This document shows, piece after piece, positions 6,564 through 20,591 of a DNA stretch of 64,000 nt (position 1 is its first letter; every line of letters starts with the position of its first letter). The DNA lies in contig CALUJE010000012.1 in the NCBI GenBank assembly GCA_944320885.1, positions 1-64,000 on the forward strand. The letters are read 5' to 3'. The stretch is from an uncultured Phocaeicola sp. (GTDB lineage Bacteria > Bacteroidota > Bacteroidia > Bacteroidales > Bacteroidaceae). The position numbers and the translations under genes are program-made. The notes under the pieces are model-generated. The model was not told the origin of the DNA. It made no database searches and saw only the letters and a list, made by a program, of their open reading frames with translations.

Positions 6564-7838
6564 TCAGTTTCCGTCGGGCTTTTCAATTTCCGTAAACGGA
6601 CTGTTGTTCCAGTGAAAGCTTTCCATGCTGTCGGGGTGTGCCGGGTCGTATGGCTTATAGTCGTTGCGCAGATGCTTGATGATGGGCAGTCCGGCTTTCT
6701 TCATGCCTTCGATGACACACTTTGCAATCTGGTAAGCTCCGTAAGGATTGAAGTGTGTGTTGTCGGCCAGCTCTTCCTTCTGTCCGGGATATGTGCCGGC
6801 GGGATAATGTACGAATGCCTTCTTTGACTCTTCTACGCCCATCGCTTCGTAAAGGGTGCGGGTCATTTCGTTGAGATCGATGAGAGGAACATTCTCCTTT
6901 TCGGCAAGCCAGCGCATGGCTTCGGGATAGTCTTCGTGCGTATCCATAATCTTTCCGTCGTTGCCGAAGCTGCGTCGCTGGGTAGGAGTGACCAGTACCG
7001 GATGTGCTCCGCGTGCCCGTGCCTCGTCAATGAATGTCTTCAGACTGGTCATGTAGGAATAATAGGCACCTTTTCCCGGTCCCTTCTGCTTCTGGTCGTT
7101 GTGACCGAACTCCATGAACACATAGTCGCCCGCCTTCATCTGCGTGAGGGCTTTCTTGAGGCGTCGTGCGGCAAGGAATGTATTGGCGCTTTCGCCCGAC
7201 TCGGCATAGTTGGCAAAGCAGATACCCGTATCAAAGAAGCGAGGAATCATCTGTCCCCAGCTTCCCCACGGCTCGTTGTCCTGGTCCACTACCGTAGAGT
7301 TTCCGCACAGGAATACGGTGCATACGGAGTCTACCCGTTCGATGGTCAGTTCCGAAAGCATCGGTGCGTCGCCGTTGAACTCCAGCGTGAGCTTGTCGTC
7401 CCAGTTCAGTTTATGGCGTTCGCGTGGTTTTATCTTTACATCCTCTTTGGCAGATATGTGCTTGTTGCGTTTGTTGATGACAAACGGGCATGCAATCAGT
7501 TCTCCCTTCCGGGTAGGCACATTCTCGTAGAACAGTCGTCTGGATTCTCCGCGCAGGGTAGTAGAGCCTGCCGAGCGTTTGCCTCCGATAACGGCTGTTA
7601 CCAGATAATTTCCGTCGGGTACGTTGACCGAGAAGAAGAACGGTGTGTGGCTGTTTTTTTGCGGTATGGGCTGCAAGTCATATCCATATCCCCTGTCGGT
7701 GCTGAACGTATCGGCCGGTGTGATGCGGATATATCCTTCCTTCACCTTCTTTCGGTTGGTAAAATCAAACTTGAATGACTGGGCTTCGGCAGTGCCTGCG
7801 AGCAAGCCGGCCAGCAGTAATATAAACAGATGTTTCAT
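6564..7838 (-). CDS. Rhamnogalacturonan acetylesterase-like SGNH esterase, secreted
   Basis: A 424-residue exported esterase with signal peptide MKHLFILLLAGLLAGTAEAQ. After an N-terminal beta-rich domain (about 22-170) comes an SGNH hydrolase with block I GNSTVVD (nucleophile Ser181), block II glycine in ESGESANTF, block III GHND (Asn247) and block V DNTHF (Asp359, His362). This pattern fits CE12-type rhamnogalacturonan acetylesterases, which remove acetyl groups from galacturonic acid in RG-I and so open the backbone to lyases. It lies close to two GH127 enzymes, consistent with pectin side-chain and decoration removal. No clear promoter was seen upstream. A pectin or xylan acetylesterase remains possible. 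Confidence 0.85.
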   Translation of the reverse strand: MKHLFILLLAGLLAGTAEAQSFKFDFTNRKKVKEGYIRITPADTFSTDRGYGYDLQPIPQKNSHTPFFFSVNVPDGNYLVTAVIGGKRSAGSTTLRGESRRLFYENVPTRKGELIACPFVINKRNKHISAKEDVKIKPRERHKLNWDDKLTLEFNGDAPMLSELTIERVDSVCTVFLCGNSTVVDQDNEPWGSWGQMIPRFFDTGICFANYAESGESANTFLAARRLKKALTQMKAGDYVFMEFGHNDQKQKGPGKGAYYSYMTSLKTFIDEARARGAHPVLVTPTQRRSFGNDGKIMDTHEDYPEAMRWLAEKENVPLIDLNEMTRTLYEAMGVEESKKAFVHYPAGTYPGQKEELADNTHFNPYGAYQIAKCVIEGMKKAGLPIIKHLRNDYKPYDPAHPDSMESFHWNNSPFTEIEKPDGN

Positions 7839-9313: not shown

Positions 9314-9826
9314 ATGAGAAAACAAGTATTTTGTATTTTATCATTCTTTTTTTTGGTCCTTTCTCATTTGTCAGCTCAGATAAAGACGCGTGATAGCCGT
9401 GAAGATATTTCCATAAACGGCATAAAGTTCGGTTATATTTATAGTATAGACCAGTTTAAAAAGGCGTTAGGGGAACCAAACAGAATAGATACATGGGATG
9501 CTACCGATTATGGTAAGGGGCATGAGTTGATTTATGGAAATGATTTGACTATTCGTTTTAATGATGACGCGCGAGATCTTCAACCCGGCATTATCTGTTT
9601 TATATTGAACACCGATAAATACACGCTGGATATAAAAGGAACAAAGCTAAAAGTGGGTGATTCTGTAGAAAAAGTGAAAACTATAAAGGGATATACCAAA
9701 CTAGAATGGCGTTGGGACGATTATTACGTTGTTCTGTTTAACAACCATATGACGGACGAGTCTGTCATGGTACAGGTAAAAGACGGCATCATCACTCAGA
9801 TAAATATAGAAGACAGGTATTACTGA
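9314..9826 (+). CDS. Secreted protein of unknown function
   Basis: A 170-residue protein with signal peptide MRKQVFCILSFFFLVLSHLSAQ. The mature ~148 residues are predicted mostly beta and contain INGIKFGYIYSIDQFKKALG near the start and repeated aromatic/Asp motifs (LEWRWDDYYVVLFNN) later. There are no cysteines in the mature part and no catalytic pattern I recognise. The opening resembles small periplasmic domains that pair a short helix with a beta-sheet, but this is a weak impression. It ends at a strong bidirectional terminator. Function unknown. Confidence 0.75.
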   Translation: MRKQVFCILSFFFLVLSHLSAQIKTRDSREDISINGIKFGYIYSIDQFKKALGEPNRIDTWDATDYGKGHELIYGNDLTIRFNDDARDLQPGIICFILNTDKYTLDIKGTKLKVGDSVEKVKTIKGYTKLEWRWDDYYVVLFNNHMTDESVMVQVKDGIITQINIEDRYY

Positions 9827-9943: not shown

Positions 9944-11416
9944 TTATTGAGCCATAGATACGGTGGTGTAAGCCTCAAAATCGTTGGTTGAGTTGTTGGT
10001 ATCGACCAGCTTGCCTTCGGCCGATTTACGGCGCACTCCTTTTCCGTAACGGTTAGTGTCACTGCTATTGAGCGAACAGTACGTATAGCCCGCATCGATG
10101 CTACTGTCGAAAGGAGGCAACTTGTAATCTTCCTTGGTTCCGAGAACAACTCCGTCGAGCACCCAGTCGTTGGGGATGACATGAATGTTTTTCACGGTTG
10201 TGGAGAATTCTCTGCCGGCAGCGTTGCTCCAGGTTTTGGTCGCGCTCCAGATATAGGCTTCGTCCGTCATGAACTGTTCCTTGCTTACCGAAGAAGGCAG
10301 TTGAGCTATCAGGTAACCGCGCACGCCGGTGTTGAAGAGAATCCAGATAGAGACGGTATTTGCTTCCCAGATATCCAGATTCGGCACATCGGGATTGTCA
10401 ATATCCTGCATGCTTGCTACCGTTGACTCATTATACCATTCGAAGTCGGCCTTTGAAAGGTCGAAAGAGTTGGGATTGGTAGCCTTGTGGTTCTGTGCAT
10501 TATTGGCGATGATAACCGACTGATGCGCTTCGAGCGGGTACTGGCTTCCGTCTCCCGGAATAACATACAGTGCCTGTACCGGAGCAGACTCGGGACGGAT
10601 GTCAGGATTATACGTTTCGTTGAAAGTCGCCGTAGAAGACGTGTTCATGTATGATTCGGCAATTATGGTACCGTCGATAAACAGCGTTTCATCGGTGTTG
10701 TTGGTCAGACGGAAATACTGGTCACCGTAAACCTTGTCGGGCTTTCCGGTAGAAGTGATGATGTTTCCGGTGCAGAATATTTCTTCGATGAGCAGTTCGC
10801 CCGGCTCAATGTTACGCCAGCTTTGCTTGATTTTGAGTGTAGCCAGCTTGCTGCCGTCGGTCTTGTTGACGATAACGTCGGCATTGCGGTATTCGGCGCT
10901 TCCGTTGACGGTAAACGAAAGGATTACGCTGTCGTCTTTTTTCTCCTTTACGCTTACCCATTGCGCATCCGCCGGAATGGACACCTCGTATCCGTCACTT
11001 TCGGGGAGAAGAATCTCCTGGTCACCTCCTTTGGCACGGATGGTAAAGCTCTGGTTGGCCGGGTCATCGGGGTTGACAAGGTAGGTTTGCGTCACGGCAA
11101 GCGTAGCCGTAGAGTTGCCGCAGTGAATGGTAAGGAGCGCACTTCGACCGGCAGCAGCTTCGAAAGCTTCGGCGGTTACGGTCACTTCGGCGCTTCCGTT
11201 ACCGCTCAGGGGAGTAACGCTGTACCATGTCTGGCCGTCGGTTGTTATGTTCCATTCGCCGTTGGCCTGAACGGTGAACTTCGCATTGCCTCCGTTGGCA
11301 TCGAACTTGACTTCCCGGGCAGAGAGAGTCACTTGCAGGTTCTCGTCTGAATCGCTGCAGGCAGTGAAGCCGGCGAGCAACATCATGAATAGGAAAAGAC
11401 TTTTTAGTTTGTTCAT
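9944..11416 (-). CDS. BACON-domain lipoprotein with DUF4876-type C-terminus
   Basis: A 490-residue lipoprotein with lipobox LAGFTAC (Cys20). Residues ~30-110 form a BACON domain (VKFDANGGNAKFTVQANGEW ... LTIHCGNSTATLAVTQ) and ~125-205 a second, more divergent one. The remainder (from PGELLIEEIFCTG) matches my memory of DUF4876, which starts with a strand like those of lamin-tail domains. BACON domains in Bacteroidetes sit on surface proteins. It is the last gene of a four-gene operon led by a TonB-dependent receptor, so a surface-exposed binding or capture role next to that receptor is likely. The ligand is unknown. Start and reading frame are secure. Confidence 0.8.
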   Translation of the reverse strand: MNKLKSLFLFMMLLAGFTACSDSDENLQVTLSAREVKFDANGGNAKFTVQANGEWNITTDGQTWYSVTPLSGNGSAEVTVTAEAFEAAAGRSALLTIHCGNSTATLAVTQTYLVNPDDPANQSFTIRAKGGDQEILLPESDGYEVSIPADAQWVSVKEKKDDSVILSFTVNGSAEYRNADVIVNKTDGSKLATLKIKQSWRNIEPGELLIEEIFCTGNIITSTGKPDKVYGDQYFRLTNNTDETLFIDGTIIAESYMNTSSTATFNETYNPDIRPESAPVQALYVIPGDGSQYPLEAHQSVIIANNAQNHKATNPNSFDLSKADFEWYNESTVASMQDIDNPDVPNLDIWEANTVSIWILFNTGVRGYLIAQLPSSVSKEQFMTDEAYIWSATKTWSNAAGREFSTTVKNIHVIPNDWVLDGVVLGTKEDYKLPPFDSSIDAGYTYCSLNSSDTNRYGKGVRRKSAEGKLVDTNNSTNDFEAYTTVSMAQ

Positions 11417-11449
11417 AATGACTGTTTTTATATTGTTAGTATTTCTTTT

Positions 11450-12985
11450 CTAAAAGCAGAGCCCGGCCGATACGTGCAGATAGCCGGCTCCGTAGTTGCC
11501 GCTGTCAATCCGTCTTTGGTATCCGGCGCTGACAAACACGGCATTGGTGGGCGACAGCTCTTTCTGGATGCGTGCTTCGGCATGAATGCGGGTGCGGTTG
11601 CGTGTGAACTGTCCGTAATCATAGTTGAGCATTCCGAGTATGCGTTGGTCGGTCAGGCCGTTTGTCACGTTCAGCGTGCCGCTGAGATTGCCTTCGTACG
11701 AACCTCCGGCGCTGAGCTTGAACAGCCAGTCTTTGCAGAAAGCGGTATATGCGGCCGAAGCTCCGGCGTGAAACAGCGAGTATCTCATTTCCCGTTCGGG
11801 GAAGAGATAAGCCTCGTCACGGTGAAAGAATCCGGCAGCAGGTTGGAAGGTCCAGCTGTGGTTCTTCCTTTTCCATTCCATTACGCCTTCCACACGGGTA
11901 CAGACCACATGGCTTGTATACATGGTCTGTTCGCCCAAAGGAAGATTGTCATTGTTATTGCTGCTGCCCAGAATGCTTTCAGTGCCCAGACGCCGCTCAT
12001 AGTTACCCTTGAGCGCTATTCCCCAGTCAAATATCTTTCCTTTCCGGCGGTAAGTCACTTCGGCAATACCTTGCCGGGTCAGCAGGTTGGTAAGGGTTAC
12101 CATGTTGAAGTCGGCCAGCTTTCGGTCGGTACTGAAACGGTCGTAGGCCAAAGTGGCATACCATCCGTTTCCCTGTCGAGGAAGAAGGGTAACGGCCGAC
12201 TGGAAGCCCGTGCCGCGATAACGGTTGTCGGTAGTGCTCGTTCCGGAATATCGGGTATGAAACGTTCCGAGTCCGGTCATCAGCAGCTCCGAAGTGTTGG
12301 CTCCGTTCTCGTTATAGAAAGCTACATCCTGTGCCTGCTTGTAGATGCGTATGCCGGCCGAAAGGCTTGCAACATACGTGCCCAGCGTGTATCCTCCCGA
12401 GAGTGTGGCCGAAAGGTCGGCGGTTATGTTGCGCGGACGCGGATCGACCTGGCGGTATTCGTGCAAGGCACGGTAATCGGCCAGGATGCCGTAGTGGAAA
12501 CGCCCGTCGCGACGGCAATAGCCTCCGTAAAACCGGTAAGCCTCGTGCCGGAGGTCTCCTCCGATGGAGTCGGCCTGGATATATGGATAGAGCAACTGGT
12601 AGTCGGAAGTAGAGTTCCAGCACACGTTGTTCTTCTTTCCGTTCGTATAGGATGCGCCGGCAAAGGCTGCGGAGTGGCGGTTGAGCCTGATGTGCGAGTG
12701 CACGCGGAACATGCCTTCGCGGTTACCGTCGCCTTCGGCCTGAAGAAAAGCCTGCTCTTCGTTGCGGAGATTCATTCCGGCCTCAAGTTCGGTGAACGAA
12801 TCCGAAAAACGGAACAGGGTGTTGGCCGCCGCATATTGGTAGACCGAACTGCCGATACGGTTGGTTGCCGATATCCGTTCCAGCGTGCGGTTGTTCACAT
12901 CGGCCGGATTGCTCTTTTCCTGCGCGCCAAGAGTCATGCAGGCAGAAACAACAGACAGGGAGCAAAGGAGATGACGCATGTTCAT
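11450..12985 (-). CDS. Outer-membrane beta-barrel protein, DUF6850-like
   Basis: A 511-residue exported protein with a signal peptide ending near LGAQE (about residue 22). The body is an alternating pattern of amphipathic strands rich in Tyr, Gly and Arg, typical of an outer-membrane barrel, and the last residues (SAGLCF) end with the usual terminal Phe. It matches my recollection of the DUF6850 barrel family that follows TonB receptors of this kind. It lies 8 bases from the upstream lipoprotein gene and 33 bases from the downstream DUF4876 gene. A second barrel beside a TonB-dependent receptor suggests an accessory export or capture channel; that is inference. A large open frame on the opposite strand is a shadow of this gene. 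Confidence 0.75.
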   Translation of the reverse strand: MNMRHLLCSLSVVSACMTLGAQEKSNPADVNNRTLERISATNRIGSSVYQYAAANTLFRFSDSFTELEAGMNLRNEEQAFLQAEGDGNREGMFRVHSHIRLNRHSAAFAGASYTNGKKNNVCWNSTSDYQLLYPYIQADSIGGDLRHEAYRFYGGYCRRDGRFHYGILADYRALHEYRQVDPRPRNITADLSATLSGGYTLGTYVASLSAGIRIYKQAQDVAFYNENGANTSELLMTGLGTFHTRYSGTSTTDNRYRGTGFQSAVTLLPRQGNGWYATLAYDRFSTDRKLADFNMVTLTNLLTRQGIAEVTYRRKGKIFDWGIALKGNYERRLGTESILGSSNNNDNLPLGEQTMYTSHVVCTRVEGVMEWKRKNHSWTFQPAAGFFHRDEAYLFPEREMRYSLFHAGASAAYTAFCKDWLFKLSAGGSYEGNLSGTLNVTNGLTDQRILGMLNYDYGQFTRNRTRIHAEARIQKELSPTNAVFVSAGYQRRIDSGNYGAGYLHVSAGLCF

Positions 12986-12993
12986 AGGGCAGT

Positions 12994-13404
12994 TCAGTTA
13001 ATTTGTGTCAGACGCAATACAATGGTCTCATTGTCATCAAGCAGTTCTGCGGCCGTTTCGGCAGCCGAATATCCCGAACACCGCACACGGGCCGTAGTTC
13101 CGTCGGCAAAGGTGGCATCGGCATCGAACGCAATCAGATAGACTCCTTTCTGTAACTTCACGTTACCGCAGTTGTTGATAAACAGGGGGAATTCATATTC
13201 CATCCGGTTGTTGATGTTGCGCAGATAGGTTCCGTCGAGAGATTCGTCGGCCTCCATGCGCACGATGGAGCGTCCGTCGGGAAGCTCGGCTACCATGGTT
13301 ACCTGTGTATAGATGTTACGGTCTGTATAGTCATCGCACGAGGTGCAGCATATGGCGCTTGCCACGACCATCATCAGGAGTATGCAGTGTAATCTTCTTT
13401 TCAT
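12994..13404 (-). CDS. Small lipoprotein of the TonB-receptor operon
   Basis: A 136-residue protein with a lipoprotein signal (VASAICCTSC, lipidated Cys near residue 23). The mature part (~112 residues) looks like a single beta-sandwich with TQVTMVAELPDGRSIVRMEA and a closing DDNETIVLRLTQ strand, reminiscent of the N-terminal domains of FimB/Mfa2-type or DUF5119-type proteins, but too short for either. It is encoded 11 bases after the receptor and 8 bases before the barrel, in one operon. A role as an accessory surface lipoprotein of the receptor is likely. I do not recognise a named family. Confidence 0.75.
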   Translation of the reverse strand: MKRRLHCILLMMVVASAICCTSCDDYTDRNIYTQVTMVAELPDGRSIVRMEADESLDGTYLRNINNRMEYEFPLFINNCGNVKLQKGVYLIAFDADATFADGTTARVRCSGYSAAETAAELLDDNETIVLRLTQIN

Positions 13405-13415
13405 ATCGTTTGTTT

Positions 13416-16229
13416 TTAAAGTTTAAAGTTCAGTTCCATTCCGAAATAGGGTTGCACTTCCCTGCGTACGGTTGTTCCGTAACGTGATTTGTACGACGGC
13501 GTATAGTCTAGAATCTTGTTGGCAAAGACCGCCAGCGCTATCTTGTCACGATAGAGCGTCTTGGTTATCTTCAGGTTGACATTCATGCTGAACGGCACCC
13601 GGTTGTAATCGTAGATGGTGCTGTTGTAATTGCGGACAAGGTATGCCAGAACTGCATCGGAGGCCGATTCTTCGGTAAACGGATGCCGTTCGTTGTTCTT
13701 GTCGATATACTCCAGCGGATAGGGATTCTTCCAGTTGCTTTTGCTCCCTGTAAACCACAGGCACTGGAAAGAACTGGAGAAGATGAGGCCCAGACGCGGA
13801 ATCTGCGTATCGGCCGTGAAGTTGGTGTTGAACATCTCACGCACATAACCGTCTTCGTCGGCATAGTATCCGATGTAGGGATACGCCTTGCCGTCGATAA
13901 CCGTTGCGGGTGAATAATACCCGGGAAGGCTGTTGCTGTAAACCGTACGGAACCATGCTCCGGTAACGGTAAACTTGGTGCGTAACGGCTTGATGCGGGG
14001 AGTAGTGAGGGTAAACTCAATACCTTCCTTCCGGGTACGGCTTCCGTTGGTAGTATAAGAGTATGTGGTGAGCAGCGTATCAAGCACATACGGTGTAGTC
14101 TCCAGCGAAGGCGGACCGGTAAGTGTGCTTCCGTCAATGGCCTGCTCGTCATAGTTCTTATAAACCATTGTGACCGGTTGCGAGCCGGAACGGAACCCGT
14201 TCTTCATGTCTTCCTTGAAATAGGTAACGGAAAGGGCACACCCATACCATTCGAGCTGTGTCCGTATTTCCCATTTGAAATTGCGGGCGGCCTTGAGCGA
14301 ATAGTTGGTCGGGTTTATCTTGAACACACGCACGTTGATGCGTCTTTTCGATTCATCGGTAGGCCAGTAGTTCAGCTGGGTGATGTCATAGTAAATCATG
14401 TCGGGATAAAGCTGGTCCATCGTAGGGAATTTGGTGTGCCAGCCCAGTCCGCCGCCGATACCCAGACGCATTTCTTCGCCCAGCAGGCTGAAGCGTGGAA
14501 GGTCAACGTGAAGGTTCATACGGGGGTCGAGGTATACTTTTCCTTCGATGGCATATTCGCTGCCTGTGTTGAACAGACTCTGTGCGCGCACGCCTGCCAT
14601 CCATTCTACTCCGAACCGGCCAAGCTGGAGGCGTGACTCGTTTTCAAGGAACAGTGCTCCCTGATGTTGGGCCGGTATGACGTTGAAAGCGCGCGGACGT
14701 ACGTTCATATCGACGGAGAAGGGATATTCTTCATCAAACAAAGTTCCTTTACCATAATTCTTGTTCATGGACCATTCGGCTCCGGTCTTGAACTTCCACA
14801 CCCGGCGGCTGTCGGGCGAAATCTCGAACGAGGCCGTGCTGCGCGCGAAGGCATAGAACGGCTTTCCGTCGACTTGCAGGGTAGCTTCGTAAGATGACGG
14901 TACGACAGTTACGTCGTGCTCGCCTTCCTGGAGATTGGTCGACAGGGGGACGGTATTGCTCATGGCCACATATTTCCAGCGGTCGATGAGGCTGTTTTCG
15001 GAAGTAACCGAGACCGTAGCGTCCAGTCCGCGGAAGAAAGTCTGTTCTTTGGAGCGCATGCGGAAATTTCCGCTCATGCTGATACGGTTGTAACTCGATT
15101 TGTAGGTCTCTATCGGTCCGTTGGTTCCGTTGTCGAGGTCGCGGTCGGATTTCTGATTGTCGAACGAACCGGTATAGTCGATGCTTCCGCCCAGTGTATA
15201 GTAATAGGCTGAAAAGTCATTCCATTTCTTGTTTATGCGGATGCTTCCGGTAAGGCGGTTGTAACTTTGGCGGGTGTTGCGCGGGTCGGCCTGTGCATCC
15301 AGATAGTTGATGCCCGTATTGAGCGTGAGCGGATTGGCTGCATTCCACTCAAAGGCCTTTCCTACGTAGAACAGCTTGCTGTCCATGTCCGACTTGAAGC
15401 GGGCGTCGAAGGCATTGCCTCCCTGTTTGCGCTTGATTTTTACCAGTCCGCTGGTCAGGTCGCCATACTCTACCGACGGAATGCCGCGTACTACCTCAAC
15501 CGATTCAATGTCGTCGGTAGAGATGGAGCGCATGTCGGCTCCGCTGTTTACGAAGCTGCTGCCATAATTGTTGCTTGTGGGCGTAGACTGCAGGTTGGCA
15601 TCGTTGCTCATGGGAACGCCGTCAATCATGAACTGCGTTCCCAGTGAAGACGTGTTGTAGTTTGAGCCTACCGGAACAGCCTCGCGCAGGCGGATGCTCT
15701 GTGGAGAACTGAAGTTGGGGTCGGACGAACGGCCACCGGGAAGGAGCTCCAGCAGGTCGGCAATGCTCGACGGCTGTATATGGCGGATAGCCTCCTTTCC
15801 GATTTCGGAAGCAGTAGAAAGCGACTTCGATTCGGAAGCGGTGACAATAACCTCTCCTATATTGATAGGATTGTAGTTTACACGGATGTGAAGGCTTGAG
15901 CGTTTTCGGGGATTTATAACTAGATCGGGCAGACGGAAAGTCTGTCCCATATAGAAAACGTGCGCCTGATAAGTTCCTGCCGGAACGTTCTCATGAAAAA
16001 AACATCTCCCGTCTTCATCGGCTGTTGCTGTAAACCTTTGCCCGGCAATACTGTCTGTACGAATCAGGCTGCATACGGCATAAGCCATAGGCTCATTGTT
16101 TTCCTTTTCGGTAATGATGACGGTAAAGGCTGGCAAGTGCGAACCTTTGCTCTGTCCCAGACTTTTATTGCCGGATACGAAAAGAAAAATGAGTGCGGTG
16201 AGTGTCAGTATCTTGTATTTAAAAGTCAT
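13416..16229 (-). CDS. TonB-dependent outer-membrane receptor
   Basis: A 937-residue receptor for energised import across the outer membrane. I place the start at ATG 16229 (MTFKYKILTLTALIFLFVSG). The longer open frame begins with TTG at 16247 inside the promoter's -7 box. After the signal peptide come a carboxypeptidase-like regulatory domain (~30-110), a TonB-box-like stretch EVIVTAS, a plug domain with FMIDGVP and IESVEVVRGIPSVEYGDLT, and a long barrel ending MELNFKL. It has no adjacent SusD, so it is not a classical glycan-utilisation receptor. The plug reads like siderophore or metal receptors. It heads an operon of four envelope genes. An ABC/PepSY operon lies immediately upstream on the same strand. 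Confidence 0.88.
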   Translation of the reverse strand: MTFKYKILTLTALIFLFVSGNKSLGQSKGSHLPAFTVIITEKENNEPMAYAVCSLIRTDSIAGQRFTATADEDGRCFFHENVPAGTYQAHVFYMGQTFRLPDLVINPRKRSSLHIRVNYNPINIGEVIVTASESKSLSTASEIGKEAIRHIQPSSIADLLELLPGGRSSDPNFSSPQSIRLREAVPVGSNYNTSSLGTQFMIDGVPMSNDANLQSTPTSNNYGSSFVNSGADMRSISTDDIESVEVVRGIPSVEYGDLTSGLVKIKRKQGGNAFDARFKSDMDSKLFYVGKAFEWNAANPLTLNTGINYLDAQADPRNTRQSYNRLTGSIRINKKWNDFSAYYYTLGGSIDYTGSFDNQKSDRDLDNGTNGPIETYKSSYNRISMSGNFRMRSKEQTFFRGLDATVSVTSENSLIDRWKYVAMSNTVPLSTNLQEGEHDVTVVPSSYEATLQVDGKPFYAFARSTASFEISPDSRRVWKFKTGAEWSMNKNYGKGTLFDEEYPFSVDMNVRPRAFNVIPAQHQGALFLENESRLQLGRFGVEWMAGVRAQSLFNTGSEYAIEGKVYLDPRMNLHVDLPRFSLLGEEMRLGIGGGLGWHTKFPTMDQLYPDMIYYDITQLNYWPTDESKRRINVRVFKINPTNYSLKAARNFKWEIRTQLEWYGCALSVTYFKEDMKNGFRSGSQPVTMVYKNYDEQAIDGSTLTGPPSLETTPYVLDTLLTTYSYTTNGSRTRKEGIEFTLTTPRIKPLRTKFTVTGAWFRTVYSNSLPGYYSPATVIDGKAYPYIGYYADEDGYVREMFNTNFTADTQIPRLGLIFSSSFQCLWFTGSKSNWKNPYPLEYIDKNNERHPFTEESASDAVLAYLVRNYNSTIYDYNRVPFSMNVNLKITKTLYRDKIALAVFANKILDYTPSYKSRYGTTVRREVQPYFGMELNFKL

Positions 16230-16244
16230 ATTCTTTTTTTGCCG

Positions 16245-16275
16245 CAAAGGTAGGAAGAGCAGGAAGTGCGGTCAA
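16245..16275 (-). promoter_or_regulatory. Promoter of the TonB-receptor operon
   Basis: The minus strand reads TACCTTTG (16252-16245), a full -7 box, and TTG (16275-16273) 20 bases upstream. The likely transcript start is only about 10 bases before ATG 16229, so the leader is very short. Confidence 0.7.
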
Positions 16276-16286
16276 TCGCTATTTAT

Positions 16287-16338
16287 AGGTATATGTTACA
16301 GAGCGTATAACAACATATAGGTATGTATCATAAGGTAT
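16287..16338 (-). promoter_or_regulatory. Three AGGTAT motifs upstream of the receptor promoter
   Basis: Plus-strand AGGTAT occurs at 16287, 16319 and 16333, just upstream of the -33 element. The same hexamer occurs in both orientations upstream of the OB-lipoprotein operon (20493-20553). A shared activator or repressor site is inferred. Confidence 0.4.
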
Positions 16339-16343
16339 AAAGA

Positions 16344-16388
16344 GCAGGCACACCCCATACCGATGAGATATATCGGGGGTGTGCCTGC
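16344..16388 (-). terminator. Strong hairpin downstream of DUF4857, probable terminator
   Basis: GCAGGCACACCCC pairs over 13 bases with GGGGTGTGCCTGC. On the minus strand TCTTTATA follows, a weak T tract. It separates the ABC/PepSY block from the receptor block. Confidence 0.6.
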
Positions 16389-16455
16389 AGATTACAAACT
16401 AGTATGAGTGTTTTTTATCAGTCCGTTACAACCGGAGTACGGCTGCTTTGATTTG

Positions 16456-16538
16456 TGCACCGCCGCATGCACAATACTGCACCGCCGTATGCACAACACT
16501 GCATTGCCCGGTGCACAACGCTGCATCGCCCGGTGCAG
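16456..16538. repeat. Phased TGCA array, eight sites
   Basis: TGCA occurs at 16456, 16468, 16478, 16490, 16500, 16512, 16522 and 16534, a strict alternation of 12 and 10 bases. Sequence between sites is GC-rich (CGCCGTA type) after the first and ACAAC type after the second of each pair. The same eight-site geometry recurs at 46044. It is non-coding and starts 28 bases beyond the DUF4857 stop codon. The remainder of this ~330-base gap holds the hairpin, the AGGTAT motifs and the receptor promoter. Confidence 0.85.
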
Positions 16539-16565
16539 AAACCCCGTGCGGCGCTCTTCTGAAAA

Positions 16566-17594
16566 TTATATGCGCGGGCGTACGTACTGGTCGTAAGGCG
16601 AGGTAAAGCTCAGACCGGGAATCTCCGTGTTTTCTGACGGTATCTCGTATTGTTTCAGGAGACTGAAGTCAGAAGCCTTGATACCATAATATACGATATT
16701 CTCGGGCGATGCTATTCTTACAGTCCAGTCGAACATGTTGCCGAATATGGTTATTTCGTCCTGTTCCGGATTATATCCGGGTACACCCGTGAGTGCGATG
16801 CTTCCGTCGGCCATGATTGCATACAGCCTGTGGTTGGTATCGGTGAGAAGTCCCAGCATCTTCCGGTCTCTGAATTCGGTGATGAATACGTGTGCCGGCT
16901 TTATTCCGACGGGAACGGGCAGTGCCTTTACATAAGGCAGTCCTCTGGTTTGTTTCATATGGAAAAGATTTCCGTCAGCATCGATAAGCAGGTATCCGTT
17001 ATCATACTCTTTCATGGTAGTAGGATTGCCTGAAACTTCCTTGGGCGGGAAACGGAATCCTTTGTCAGAAAGCATTTGGGTAAACTTGCGGCTCTTTTCT
17101 TCGTTGACGGTATTTGTCTCCATATTGACAAACTCTATTCCTTTGCGGTTAAAACGGAATGCGTCGTCGGGCATGTCAAGGTCTACGCGGCTTGGCATCG
17201 ATTCAAGCAGGAAATAAATGCCGGTCTGAGGAGTATTGATAGCCGAAGGGCGGGTACGGAAGTTGAAAGAGGTCATCTGTATCTCTTTGGGACTTACCGG
17301 AACCCCCATGATGCTGTCGGGAAAGCGTTCGTCGGCAACGAGCTGACGCATGAAGAAGGCCGGAAGCAGACTGTCTGTCTGTTCGGTAGTATATTGATTG
17401 CCTGCCAGGTCGCGGCGTATGCTTCCTTTGTCTTTATCGTATTCTGTCACGATGAAATCGTCGAGCAAAGAACTGTACATGACAAAGCGGTTGGGCCCGG
17501 CTTTCGTGGTAAGGAAAGCATAGCACCAGGGCAGTTGCCAGACGAGCAGGATGGCAATGGTAAACAGTAATAGTATTTTGCTGAATTGATTCAT
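16566..17594 (-). CDS. DUF4857-like membrane-anchored protein
   Basis: A 342-residue protein with one N-terminal hydrophobic segment (residues ~8-30, uncleaved anchor likely) and a large soluble domain facing the periplasm. The soluble part has repeated beta-strand motifs such as YDNGYLLIDADGNLFHMKQ and HRLYAIMADGSIALTG, reminiscent of a beta-propeller or WD-like blade pattern. I recall this family as DUF4857, found in Bacteroidetes next to ABC-2 permeases and PepSY membrane proteins. It is the last gene of a five-gene operon, 19 bases after the permease. Molecular function unknown. Confidence 0.75.
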   Translation of the reverse strand: MNQFSKILLLFTIAILLVWQLPWCYAFLTTKAGPNRFVMYSSLLDDFIVTEYDKDKGSIRRDLAGNQYTTEQTDSLLPAFFMRQLVADERFPDSIMGVPVSPKEIQMTSFNFRTRPSAINTPQTGIYFLLESMPSRVDLDMPDDAFRFNRKGIEFVNMETNTVNEEKSRKFTQMLSDKGFRFPPKEVSGNPTTMKEYDNGYLLIDADGNLFHMKQTRGLPYVKALPVPVGIKPAHVFITEFRDRKMLGLLTDTNHRLYAIMADGSIALTGVPGYNPEQDEITIFGNMFDWTVRIASPENIVYYGIKASDFSLLKQYEIPSENTEIPGLSFTSPYDQYVRPRI

Positions 17595-17613
17595 AAGTGC
17601 ATGTGTTTAGTGG

Positions 17614-18285
17614 TTAATCTTGTCTGCCGGCTTTAAAACGTCTGATGGAAATGAATGAAAGTGTTGTGAGCAGAATGGTATAAACCAGCAGATAAGGAAG
17701 AAAATCATTATAAGACTGCGGAACGACGCCCAGGAAATAAACGCGCAGTGTTATCGCCGCAACGGCAGCGTTGAGAATGCGGCGTTTCCATGTCGGTTCC
17801 AGACAAATCCATGCAGTAAAAAGATATCCGGCAAAGCCCGACAGATACCAGGGAGCAGCTGCCGACAGAATATTCCTGGTGAGTTCGTATGGAAGTACGC
17901 CGGGAAGATAACTTACGGCAATCAGCAGATTGGCAAGGTAGCATCCAAATAGTACGGTTACACCCGTAGCAAGCATGGCAACAGTCATCTTCTGCTGAGA
18001 ACAGGGAAGATGAAGCGTGAGCTTGAGACACTTGCGCTGCATCTCGGGAATAAACTGTACCAGAGCTGCTATTATGCCGGTAATTAGTGGTACATACTGA
18101 AGCAGGTCAATGAAGGTAACGTTCTTGAGCACCATTACTTCCCAGATGTGAGCGGCTCCTTTCAGCTCGATGGCACGGTCTATGCGAAGCATGCAGTAGG
18201 CAACCATGCCGTTGCTCACGATGAATGCCAGCAGGAAATACCAGCGGAGCTTGAGCCACTCTTTGTAAAATATAGCTTTTGTCAT
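17614..18285 (-). CDS. ABC-2-type transporter permease
   Basis: A 223-residue integral membrane protein with about six hydrophobic helices (first at ~14-35, last at ~190-213) and basic termini (MTKAIFYKEWLKLRW at the start). The N-terminal amphipathic 'KEWLKLR' helix before the first membrane segment is characteristic of ABC-2 permeases. It lies 20 bases downstream of the ATPase gene and 19 bases upstream of DUF4857, so the three products probably form one complex. ABC-2 systems are usually exporters or tension-driven membrane machines; the cargo cannot be read from sequence. Confidence 0.82.
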   Translation of the reverse strand: MTKAIFYKEWLKLRWYFLLAFIVSNGMVAYCMLRIDRAIELKGAAHIWEVMVLKNVTFIDLLQYVPLITGIIAALVQFIPEMQRKCLKLTLHLPCSQQKMTVAMLATGVTVLFGCYLANLLIAVSYLPGVLPYELTRNILSAAAPWYLSGFAGYLFTAWICLEPTWKRRILNAAVAAITLRVYFLGVVPQSYNDFLPYLLVYTILLTTLSFISIRRFKAGRQD

Positions 18286-18305
18286 ATTTGAATATTCTTG
18301 TTGGG

Positions 18306-19193
18306 TTAATACTTTCCTGTCAGTCCGATGAATGCGTCTTCCAGGTTTACGTGTCCGAAGCTCAGACTGCGGTACGGCACACCGTGTTTCTTCAGTGCTT
18401 CTTCGGCTTCTGCAGGGGGAAGGAACGAGCAGGTTTCGAGCGTTCCTCTTATGACCGACGGATGATAGAAACTGTCTGGGAGTTGAGGCTCATATCCTTC
18501 CGGTACCTGACAGGTGTACTGGTACAGACTGGACAACAGTTCCTTGACCGGTTTCTGGGTGAGGATGCGTCCGTAGTCCATAATAATGCAATCGTCAATA
18601 AGACGTTCCATATCCTGAATGATGTGTGAGGTGAGGAATACCGTCTTGTTCTCGGCCTGTGCATAGTCTCTCAGATAGTCGGAGAAAAGTCGCCGGTATC
18701 CGGGGTCAAGTCCGAGTGAGAAGTCGTCGAGTACAAGCAAGTCGGGGTCTTGTGCCAGTATCAGTCCCAGCGCTACCTGCGAGCGTTGTCCGTTCGACAT
18801 GCGCGCGATGATTTGTCCGGGAGCAACCTTCAGCTTGTTCATCAGTTCATAATAAGCTTCCTTCTTCCACTGTCCCGGATAGAAGGATGAGTAGAACTTT
18901 TCTATCTGCACGATATTCATGAAATGATACTGCACGTGTCCTTCGAGCAGCAGTCCTATCCTGCGTCGCATGTGCGAGGGCATGGTGCGGATGTTCTCTC
19001 CGAAAATAAGGCATTCGCCTTCGCGCGGTTCAAGATATCCGCTGAGAATGTTGATGGTAGTGGTTTTTCCGGTTCCGTTTTTCCCCAGCAGGCCCAGTAT
19101 GCGTCCCTGGGGAACTTCGAAACTCAGGTCTTCATATATTTTGCGTTTCCCATAATAATGGGTCAGGTGTTTGCATTCAAGTATTGTGTTCAT
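18306..19193 (-). CDS. ABC transporter ATP-binding protein
   Basis: A 295-residue nucleotide-binding subunit. It has Walker A GLLGKNGTGKTT, an ABC signature in the form MSNGQRSQVALG, Walker B LLVLDDFSLGLD, a Q-loop region and an H-loop in LTSHI. The residue after the Walker B Asp is Asp where most ABC proteins have the catalytic Glu (LDEP), so ATP hydrolysis may be slow. The C-terminal ~70 residues form the small extra domain seen in ABC-2 ATPases. It powers the permease encoded 20 bases downstream. An 86-base gap holding a hairpin separates it from the PepSY gene upstream. Confidence 0.88.
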   Translation of the reverse strand: MNTILECKHLTHYYGKRKIYEDLSFEVPQGRILGLLGKNGTGKTTTINILSGYLEPREGECLIFGENIRTMPSHMRRRIGLLLEGHVQYHFMNIVQIEKFYSSFYPGQWKKEAYYELMNKLKVAPGQIIARMSNGQRSQVALGLILAQDPDLLVLDDFSLGLDPGYRRLFSDYLRDYAQAENKTVFLTSHIIQDMERLIDDCIIMDYGRILTQKPVKELLSSLYQYTCQVPEGYEPQLPDSFYHPSVIRGTLETCSFLPPAEAEEALKKHGVPYRSLSFGHVNLEDAFIGLTGKY

Positions 19194-19229
19194 TTTGAGT
19201 AGTATTGTAAGAACCCAGTGAGAGCGTAA

Positions 19230-19261
19230 CGAATCTCCGCCTTCGGCAAGGAGGAGATTCG
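19230..19261 (-). promoter_or_regulatory. Intercistronic hairpin
   Basis: CGAATCTCC (19230-19238) pairs with GGAGATTCG (19253-19261) around a GC-rich inner loop containing TTCG. No T tract follows on either strand, so RNA processing or stability control is more likely than termination. Confidence 0.5.
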
Positions 19262-19279
19262 CGGATACTCTTGTTTAAA

Positions 19280-19855
19280 TCAAAGCAATAAAAATGAAAT
19301 GGGAATCAGTATTCCTATTATCAGCTCTATTCCGCCGCGTCCCCATAGTCCTTTAGGACCCTTAATCATAAACAGCCCCGTCAGTGTAATCAGAATAAGA
19401 CAGACAGAGAAGGCATCGGCAAACCATGTCCACCAGCTTCCCGGATTGAAATGGAGCTTTACCATCTGCGATATGAGCGGACGGCTTTTTACCGATTCGT
19501 AAACAGCTTCTCCGCTTTGTGTGTCTATCACCAGACTGGAGCCTCCTTTCAGGAAAACCTTCAGCTGGTTGGCCGACGGATAATAGAACTGCGTGAAGTT
19601 CTGTGCTTCGTCAAGCGGTTTCAGGACTTCCAGAATGAACTCTCTGTCCATGCTTGCCTTATCGGGTATATCGCCGGCAGGAATATGGAAGGTAGAACGG
19701 TTTATGACGTAACTTGGGTCTAAATCACGCCGGTGGTTCATGAATATCCCCGACAGCGCGTAGATGATAACCATTCCCGCAAAGAAGAAGGAAAGGTCGC
19801 GGTGCAGGGTGCGGCATATCTTTCTGAAAAATGTACCGTTATTCCTTGATATCAT
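19280..19855 (-). CDS. PepSY-associated membrane protein
   Basis: About 191 residues from the ATG at 19855 (MISRNNGTFFRK). ATG 19867 is an alternative, and the longer frame begins with TTG. The start overlaps the end of the upstream lipoprotein gene, which implies coupled translation. A first membrane helix (~18-38, FFFAGMVIIYALSGIFMNHR) is followed by a ~90-residue periplasmic PepSY-like domain and two C-terminal helices with WWTWFADAFSVCLILITLTG and IELIIGILIPISFLL. His residues flank the helices (LHRDLS, MNHRRD, KLHFNP) as in PepSY_TM proteins tied to siderophore or haem reduction. A redox step after TonB import is inferred. Confidence 0.75.
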   Translation of the reverse strand: MISRNNGTFFRKICRTLHRDLSFFFAGMVIIYALSGIFMNHRRDLDPSYVINRSTFHIPAGDIPDKASMDREFILEVLKPLDEAQNFTQFYYPSANQLKVFLKGGSSLVIDTQSGEAVYESVKSRPLISQMVKLHFNPGSWWTWFADAFSVCLILITLTGLFMIKGPKGLWGRGGIELIIGILIPISFLLL

Positions 19856-20423
19856 AACTTGCGGCATCAACGTGATAGAATGACAGGTAGTCTTTTCCGG
19901 TCTGTGCCTTCTGCTGTGCTATCTTGGCACGGAAGTCGGCAATACGTTCCTGAGCAGTATTTCCGGTTTCACCGCGTGCCTTTTTCTCCGTGTCGCATCC
20001 GGCTTCTCCGTCACCGTGCTGTTTTTCGGTCTGTGCACTCAACTGTTTTTCCCAGTTCTGGAGGTAAGCTTCATCAATGCGGTCTTCTACAAGTGTTCCT
20101 TTTACCTCTACGATGGAATTCACGCATTTGCTGTCGAATGAACCCAGTTTGCATGCTTCAACACGGATGGTCTTGGTGTCATCACTTCCCATCAGGAATA
20201 TTTTGGTTGCTCCGTGTTTGCAGGTATGCGTGCATATGCCTTGTATGGTGACTTCTTTTCCTGCCAGTGAATCGGCACTGGCCAGAACCTCATCAATGCT
20301 GAGGGCTGCAGAACTGGTAGCTTCGGACGCCTGTTGGGTGTCATTCTTTTTATTGTTGGAACAAGCACTGAATGTAAGGGCGGAAAATGCCATAAAGGCA
20401 ACTAATAAGCTTCTTGTTTTCAT
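19839..20423 (-). CDS. OB-fold lipoprotein with C-x-H-x-C-x-H motif
   Basis: A 194-residue lipoprotein (lipobox FSAC, Cys21), first gene of the ABC/PepSY operon. A low-complexity linker is followed at ~42-115 by a small OB-fold-like domain of the tRNA_anti type (SLAGKEVTIQGICTH ... VEVKGTLVED). It contains Cys64-x-His66-x-Cys68-x-His70, plus Cys91 and Cys100, a set well suited to binding a metal or haem. The C-terminal third is charged and helical (ERIADFRAKIAQQKAQTG). I infer a periplasmic metal-handling factor for the membrane proteins encoded downstream. No named family is certain. Confidence 0.75.
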   Translation of the reverse strand: MKTRSLLVAFMAFSALTFSACSNNKKNDTQQASEATSSAALSIDEVLASADSLAGKEVTIQGICTHTCKHGATKIFLMGSDDTKTIRVEACKLGSFDSKCVNSIVEVKGTLVEDRIDEAYLQNWEKQLSAQTEKQHGDGEAGCDTEKKARGETGNTAQERIADFRAKIAQQKAQTGKDYLSFYHVDAASYDIKE

Positions 20424-20462: not shown

Positions 20463-20493
20463 CGAAAGTAGACTGATAAAGAGCTTTGGTCAA
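20463..20493 (-). promoter_or_regulatory. Promoter of the OB-lipoprotein/ABC operon
   Basis: The minus strand reads TACTTTCG (20470-20463), one mismatch from TAnnTTTG, with TTG (20493-20491) 20 bases upstream. The GGTCAAT on the plus strand around the -33 element is also found at the receptor promoter (16271-16277). Confidence 0.55.
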
Positions 20494-20553
20494 TACCTTA
20501 AACTATGTATTCTTTTCCCTGTAGAAGCGTTGCCGGTAACTACTTTTAGGTAT
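20493..20553. promoter_or_regulatory. ATACCT and AGGTAT motifs in the divergent promoter region
   Basis: ATACCT at 20493-20498 and AGGTAT at 20548-20553 form an inverted pair between the OB-lipoprotein operon and the phosphoesterase gene. The hexamer also occurs three times upstream of the receptor. Confidence 0.4.
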
Positions 20554-20591
20554 ATTGTTTCCTGAAACTGTATATTGAGTTGTTTTTTATT

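Follow-up and report, generated by a model that had tools for sequence, protein, structure and literature searches.

The nine genes that lie between positions 20423 and 9944 of the window, a 64,000-nt stretch of contig CALUJE010000012.1 (GCA_944320885.1) from an uncultured Phocaeicola sp., form one system. We consider it likely to be an envelope apparatus that acquires iron from a ligand, either a foreign siderophore-type ferric chelate or haem, and that is turned on in iron or haem starvation. All nine ORFs are found on the minus strand in the ORF list of the window, where an earlier sequence-only reading had described them, and are organized into two blocks separated by 318 bp. Block B, which is upstream in the window, comprises an OB-fold lipoprotein, a PepSY protein, an ABC ATPase, a presumed permease and a DUF4857 protein; block A is composed of a TonB-dependent receptor, a 136-aa lipoprotein, a DUF6850 barrel and a lipoprotein with BACON and DUF4876 domains. 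The plus strand encodes, at 9314–9826, a small secreted protein whose match to DUF7738 is weak and falls below the cut-off; its gene converges with block A and is outside the system.

The first gene of block B (19839–20423) encodes a lipoprotein that, in its AlphaFold2 model (pLDDT of 81), adopts an OB fold, as had been proposed: VIA-align superimposes it onto the OB domain of an Asn-tRNA ligase with a Z score of 12.3 and 2.2 Å over 87 residues. The structure matches listed are nucleic-acid-type OB domains; neither CcmE nor NosL is among them, an absence that excludes neither, and a search of solved structures with the OB profile gave weak, unrelated matches only. The C-x-H-x-C-x-H motif noticed earlier is confirmed in its H-x-C-x-H part (H66, C68 and H70), present in 90 of 91 OB lipoproteins with one half of a broken gene copy as the lone exception, but its first Cys is less constant, being kept in 86 of the 90 motif-bearing proteins. 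In Bacteroides reticulotermitis (L159, ~7100–7700) the OB lipoprotein gene occupies two ORFs of 103 and 94 aa, which may reflect disruption of the gene or an error in sequencing. The overlapping next gene (19280–19870) encodes a PepSY_TM_like_2 membrane protein with about three transmembrane segments (PF16357, PepSY_TM, 52.1 bits for a cut-off of 27). Its H23, H46 and H140 are invariant in a 12-member alignment and hint at haem b or ferric-chelate reduction; a solved-structure search with the PepSY profile returned no match.

The ATPase (18306–19193; Pfam ABC_tran) is DrrA/ABCA-like, with the Walker A motif GKNGTGKT, the signature MSNGQ and the Walker B motif LVLDDFS. In contrast to DrrA/ABCA-like exporters, where a catalytic Walker B Glu is expected, 102 of 103 family members carry LxLDDFSxGLD with Asp replacing this Glu, and the usual Glu is found in several other ABC proteins encoded at these loci. 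The adjacent 223-aa membrane protein (17614–18285), with five or six transmembrane segments, is the presumed permease. Pfam detects no ABC-2 family in the window permease or in six of its relatives; among the nine proteins, Pfam also gives no family for the permease, the OB lipoprotein or the small lipoprotein. The last product of block B (16566–17594), assigned to DUF4857 by Pfam just as the PepSY protein is to its family, both as anticipated, has an N-terminal transmembrane helix followed by a β-rich extracytoplasmic domain. The Foldseek matches of the latter are weak and propeller-like, the best being BtuK1 (TM score of 0.21, VIA Z of 8.5), and we describe its predicted structure as propeller-like, with no closer assignment. 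Many DUF4857 relatives gain C-terminal hydrophobic segments.

The receptor of block A is listed as an ORF at 13416–16247, starting from a TTG codon, but this codon falls within the promoter, and translation more probably begins at the ATG at 16229 (13416–16229). Its Pfam match is limited to the TonB plug, and a solved-structure sequence search gave no match. No SusD family is detected by Pfam among the nine proteins, so that the locus, unlike SusCD systems, has no SusD beside the receptor; the second barrel is the DUF6850 outer-membrane protein (11450–12985). A receptor lacking SusD and accompanied by another barrel is what the sequence-only reading had described. Of the two lipoproteins that it placed in this block, both exist, but one is not a component in its own right. 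The small lipoprotein (12994–13404) aligns with the domain found at the N terminus of ordinary DUF4876 proteins (hhalign 97%, E of 2.5e-11 in one comparison), while the surface lipoprotein (9944–11416), to which the solved structure 4q1z is related, carries one or more BACON domains where ordinary DUF4876 proteins have that N-terminal domain. By sequence comparison, the DUF4876 gene of the window is split, with a domain exchange, and the small lipoprotein is a split part of it rather than a new component.

The association of the two blocks is widespread. Among 247 evenly drawn Bacteroidales genomes, DUF4857 occurs in 30, 28 of which also carry DUF6850 (Fisher p ~1e-25, ignoring relatedness), and DUF6850 is found within 15 kb of 28 of the 35 DUF4857 copies, which is at odds with the possibility, raised with the initial proposal as grounds against it, that the blocks rarely occur together elsewhere. 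We also compared the 80 nearest relatives in named genomes of Bacteroides, Phocaeicola, Mediterranea, Alistipes, Coprobacter, Porphyromonas uenonis and others, a set biased to near relatives. Full neighbourhoods, with 9 kb on both sides, are available for 48 of them: the OB lipoprotein and the ABC pair are present in all 48, PepSY in 43, at least two block A genes in 44 and all three in 41. The gene maps show single operons, such as receptor-DUF4876-DUF6850-OB-PepSY-ABC-ABC-DUF4857. Because this arrangement is conserved, chance co-location is excluded. Block A first is the usual order; the window and four other loci (L102–L105) have block B first. The clade of the window has thus reversed the blocks and provided each with its own promoter, where most genomes have a single operon.

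That the blocks are instead two adjacent independent systems, an importer (A) and a stress ABC exporter (B) co-located through a common iron response, appears rather unlikely to us. Block A is often solitary, with 21 of 49 DUF6850 copies away from DUF4857, and a C25/HEAT-type protein stands in its company in 6 of 8 solitary loci examined; block B, however, is seldom seen without block A, and single operons with an interleaved gene order occur in many lineages. The block-B-linked DUF6850 copies do not form one clade in the DUF6850 tree (at least three changes), so the link has been gained or lost more than once. At L094:10901–15286, L095:635–7255 and L096 to L099, block A lacks block B and has beside it one to three large proteins whose matches to C25 peptidases and HEAT repeats are weak. 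In one Bacteroides genome (L129, 11700–17500), DUF4857 is immediately followed by another copy of block A, and two receptors may share one inner-membrane module.

The composition of the cassette also varies. A slot within it holds different surface proteins depending on the lineage, fimbrillin-like in B. faecis and T9SS-type in several others. This slot bears on the published description of the matching locus of B. thetaiotaomicron, BT3625–BT3633, as a 'putative fimbrillin synthesis/transport locus', given with neither mechanism nor operator (PMC10434189). The annotation of BT3625–BT3633 resembles the window in its DUF4857 protein, hypothetical protein (the permease), ABC ATPase, PepSY_TM protein, DUF4876 proteins and TonB receptor, and differs by the fimbrillin-like BT3630; the clade of the window differs in turn by the reversed block order, the split of DUF4876 and the gain of the BACON domain. 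In B. faecis, an Mfa_like_1 fimbrillin-like protein does separate DUF6850 from the OB gene, as annotated in B. thetaiotaomicron. Yet the slot is empty in the window and filled by T9SS-type surface proteins of several kinds in other genomes, no fimbrial assembly gene occurs in the window, and a TonB receptor is an importer. Unlike Mfa/FimA fimbriae, the nine proteins contain no fimbrillin domain, fimbrillin being confined to the variable slot of B. faecis-type loci. We therefore regard a locus for fimbriae or surface-protein export as very improbable.

Both transcription units of the window carry the Bacteroidota promoter form TTG-N20-TAnnTTYG, which is found at 37 of 66 operon heads against 0.9 in shuffles: TTG-N20-TACCTTTG for block A (16245–16275) and TTG-N20-TACTTTCG for block B (20463–20493), both on the minus strand. 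Upstream regions of 55 dereplicated loci have AATACCTA in common (23 against 0.8 expected), the full-set form of the motif being aAATACCTAnAAaTaGgtATTg. We used a matrix trained on 45 upstream regions from which the window and its sister clade were left out; the resulting palindrome, AATACCTAnAAATAGGTATT, marks both window promoters. The three best sites in the whole 64 kb are the proximal operator of block A, ATATACCTATAAATAGCGATTG (16273–16294, minus strand, 22.8 bits), a second block A operator 32 bp upstream (16305–16326, 14.4 bits) and the distal operator of block B, ATATACCTAAAAGTAGTTACCG (20534–20555, minus strand, 13.1 bits); the next best site scores 11.4 bits. Block B also has a degenerate proximal operator (20491–20512, minus strand, 7.4 bits), whose distance from the -7 box is the standard one; both of its operators, with 13.1 and 7.4 bits, are weaker than those of block A.

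Sites of at least 17 bits occur at 1043 per Mb upstream of system genes, most of these being in the training set, versus 8.2 per Mb in the background, and expectation-maximization on shuffled upstream regions yields motifs of 10–11 bits, about half of the real 19.8 bits. A simple pattern search allowing three mismatches is non-specific in this genome by count alone (8 versus 7 in the reversed control). It is the held-out matrix, the constant spacing and the identities of the genes, and not the simple-pattern count, that make the case for the operator. In 33 of 39 loci, the palindrome centre and the -7 box are 31 bp apart, the centre coming first, and the distance is 30–32 bp in 38 of 39; the sites are often paired, 32 bp apart. 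With the boxes placed at -33 and -7, the centre falls at about -41.5, the usual position of an activator, which speaks for activation and against a Fur repressor.

The genes that share this operator connect the system to iron and haem. In the same genome, it precedes a flavodoxin gene (25.0 bits), a hemerythrin-domain gene followed by a LuxR/GerE regulator gene (21.4 and 21.3 bits, 32 bp apart as in block A) and hmuY-hmuR (17.8 bits); in P. vulgatus, it precedes the xus operon, the hmu operon and flavodoxin. All of these flavodoxin, hemerythrin-LuxR, hmu and xus sites are outside the training set. It seems, then, that AATACCTAnAAATAGGTATT marks an iron/haem-starvation regulon of Bacteroidales that includes hmu, xus, flavodoxin, the hemerythrin-LuxR regulator and the nine-gene system. 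We found no earlier description of this operator in the literature searched, which does not by itself prove its novelty. Outside the window, the sites of this regulon are listed at L235:1075–1128, L236:1950, L246:4532, L247:5938 and L248:1932. A 23.4-bit site near a Fur-family gene (L188/L237), at L237:1904 (G000:C20:41905), is located between the convergent ends of the Fur-family gene and a cupin gene; it is possibly non-functional and was not counted. With its half-site TACCTAn and a spacing of 2, the palindrome resembles NarL-type sites, which have a 7-2-7 organization, and this likeness fits a LuxR-type regulator such as CdhR. CdhR has been reported to activate hmu in P. gingivalis (PMC10101095), and the regulator of the nine-gene system is probably a hemerythrin/LuxR-type protein related to it.

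Published expression data agree with this assignment. BT3625–BT3633 is up 37–128 fold under iron depletion with dipyridyl and 14–19 fold in colitis (PMC10434189). We equate it with the window system by annotation and gene order, in a different species. Dipyridyl also binds metals other than iron. In P. gingivalis, the block A-type genes PG1019–22, matched by annotation and gene order, are up 21–215 fold in low iron, and the DUF4876 protein is strongly down with excess haemin (PMC10470040). The operator shared with iron and haem genes, together with the induction of BT3625–BT3633 by iron depletion, makes the iron/haem reading of the nine genes well supported. The operators and the B. thetaiotaomicron expression also suggest that the blocks do not answer to unrelated conditions, the other finding that the initial proposal had named against itself; these operators in common with iron and haem genes and the neighbourhoods across Bacteroidales bear out its claim that the two blocks belong together.

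A system for copper or another metal is unlikely on this evidence. It would account for the Cys/His site of the OB lipoprotein, since a lipoprotein with H-x-C-x-H beside an ABC-2 pair recalls NosL with NosF/NosY, and PepSY_TM proteins adjoin and also serve TonB copper receptors in other bacteria (PMC12914433); however, the B. thetaiotaomicron locus is induced by iron depletion, and the operator is held in common with hmu, flavodoxin and xus. The likeness to NosDFY with NosL extends to the ABC ATPase, the small permease and an extracytoplasmic β protein, but is an analogy only: regulation differs, and neither NosL nor NosD was matched by profile or among the folds listed.

Within the iron/haem reading, we propose that the ligand is first bound at the cell surface by the DUF4876 lipoproteins and then handed, perhaps together with the DUF6850 barrel as a helper, to the receptor, which would import it by the TonB-driven route. 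At the inner membrane, PepSY, a presumed haem-b electron carrier, would reduce and loosen the iron, and the OB lipoprotein would take up the freed metal or haem at H-x-C-x-H. The ABC pair and DUF4857 could then serve as a slow machine for expelling the stripped ligand or for unloading the OB lipoprotein, the least certain of these steps. The shared palindromic operator, for which regulon membership was computed, would activate both blocks, probably via the CdhR-related regulator.

The redox step is not universal in its PepSY form, since PepSY is missing from several relatives that possess the ABC/DUF4857 core, whether or not they also have the OB lipoprotein. A polyferredoxin (Fer4_5) is found near the core cassette at six loci (L081, L082, L084, L088, L090 and L093), mostly in the same operon; none of the six has an OB or PepSY gene (Fisher p of 0.003, relatedness uncorrected), and none of these polyferredoxin-type loci has the operator before the receptor. 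The polyferredoxin looks like a substitute for PepSY as electron donor and may reduce the iron in those lineages. PepSY, or polyferredoxin where PepSY is missing, fits the redox step suggested at the outset.

A possible but less probable alternative is a haem system, in which the receptor imports haem, PepSY handles it, the OB lipoprotein carries it, and haem or a product of it is transported by the ABC pair with DUF4857. The operator in common with hmuY and with the hemerythrin/LuxR pair is consistent with this, and CcmE is an OB-fold haem carrier. The reported role of CdhR as activator of hmu (PMC10101095) and the strong decrease of the P. gingivalis DUF4876 protein with excess haemin argue in the same direction; haem retains some probability because block A responds to haemin in that species. 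Against it, the genome has its own hmuY-hmuR locus elsewhere, haem needs no reductase, yet PepSY or polyferredoxin is usually present, and the OB matches are nucleic-acid-type domains, not specifically CcmE. The presumed reductase, usually present, and the separate hmu locus lead us to favour a ferric chelate over haem. A more specific proposal, which we put forward tentatively, is that the inner membrane houses a dedicated ATP-driven machine, made up of the OB lipoprotein, PepSY, the ABC pair and DUF4857 and under a hemerythrin/LuxR-type switch, in which an ABC family devoid of the catalytic Glu helps to strip iron or haem from the ligand, hand it over through an OB-fold metal carrier and expel the empty ligand.

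How distinct this route is depends on the level considered. Its list of parts differs from those of Feo (no FeoA or FeoB domain in the nine proteins), Hmu (no HmuY at the locus by Pfam, a separate hmuY-hmuR lying at C1 of the genome) and Xus, as claimed initially, but its logic is that of the known Xus system (XusA/B/C, BT2065–2063; PMC13142918), namely a TonB receptor, a surface lipoprotein and a PepSY inner-membrane reductase. Like Xus, the window has receptor and PepSY genes and a predicted induction by iron limitation, the latter from its operator and from the B. thetaiotaomicron locus, and Xus of P. vulgatus carries the same operator. In contrast to Xus, DUF4374 (XusB) is absent from the nine proteins by Pfam and from the genome, PepSY is 196 aa long versus 414 aa in P. 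vulgatus xus, and the OB lipoprotein, ABC pair, DUF4857 and second barrel come in addition. PG1019–PG1022 of P. gingivalis and BT1933–39, likewise induced in low iron, are comparable through the receptor and DUF4876, and solo loci of this kind have a C25/HEAT-type protein.

Part of this system was known already, as an iron-stimulon locus without a mechanism. New here are the operator evidence, the DUF4876 split, the invariant H-x-C-x-H, the PepSY histidines, the Walker B Asp and the polyferredoxin swap. Gut Bacteroides depend on iron piracy during inflammation, and a 2026 structural study assigns the inner-membrane step after Xus to 'an unknown inner membrane protein' (PMC13142918). The cassette, widespread in Bacteroides, Phocaeicola, Alistipes and their relatives, brings an uncharacterised inner-membrane module, and the stripping machine, if it exists, would be a third way beside Feo and the haem/siderophore ABC importers. 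The common operator offers a ready handle on the iron/haem regulon of Bacteroidales.
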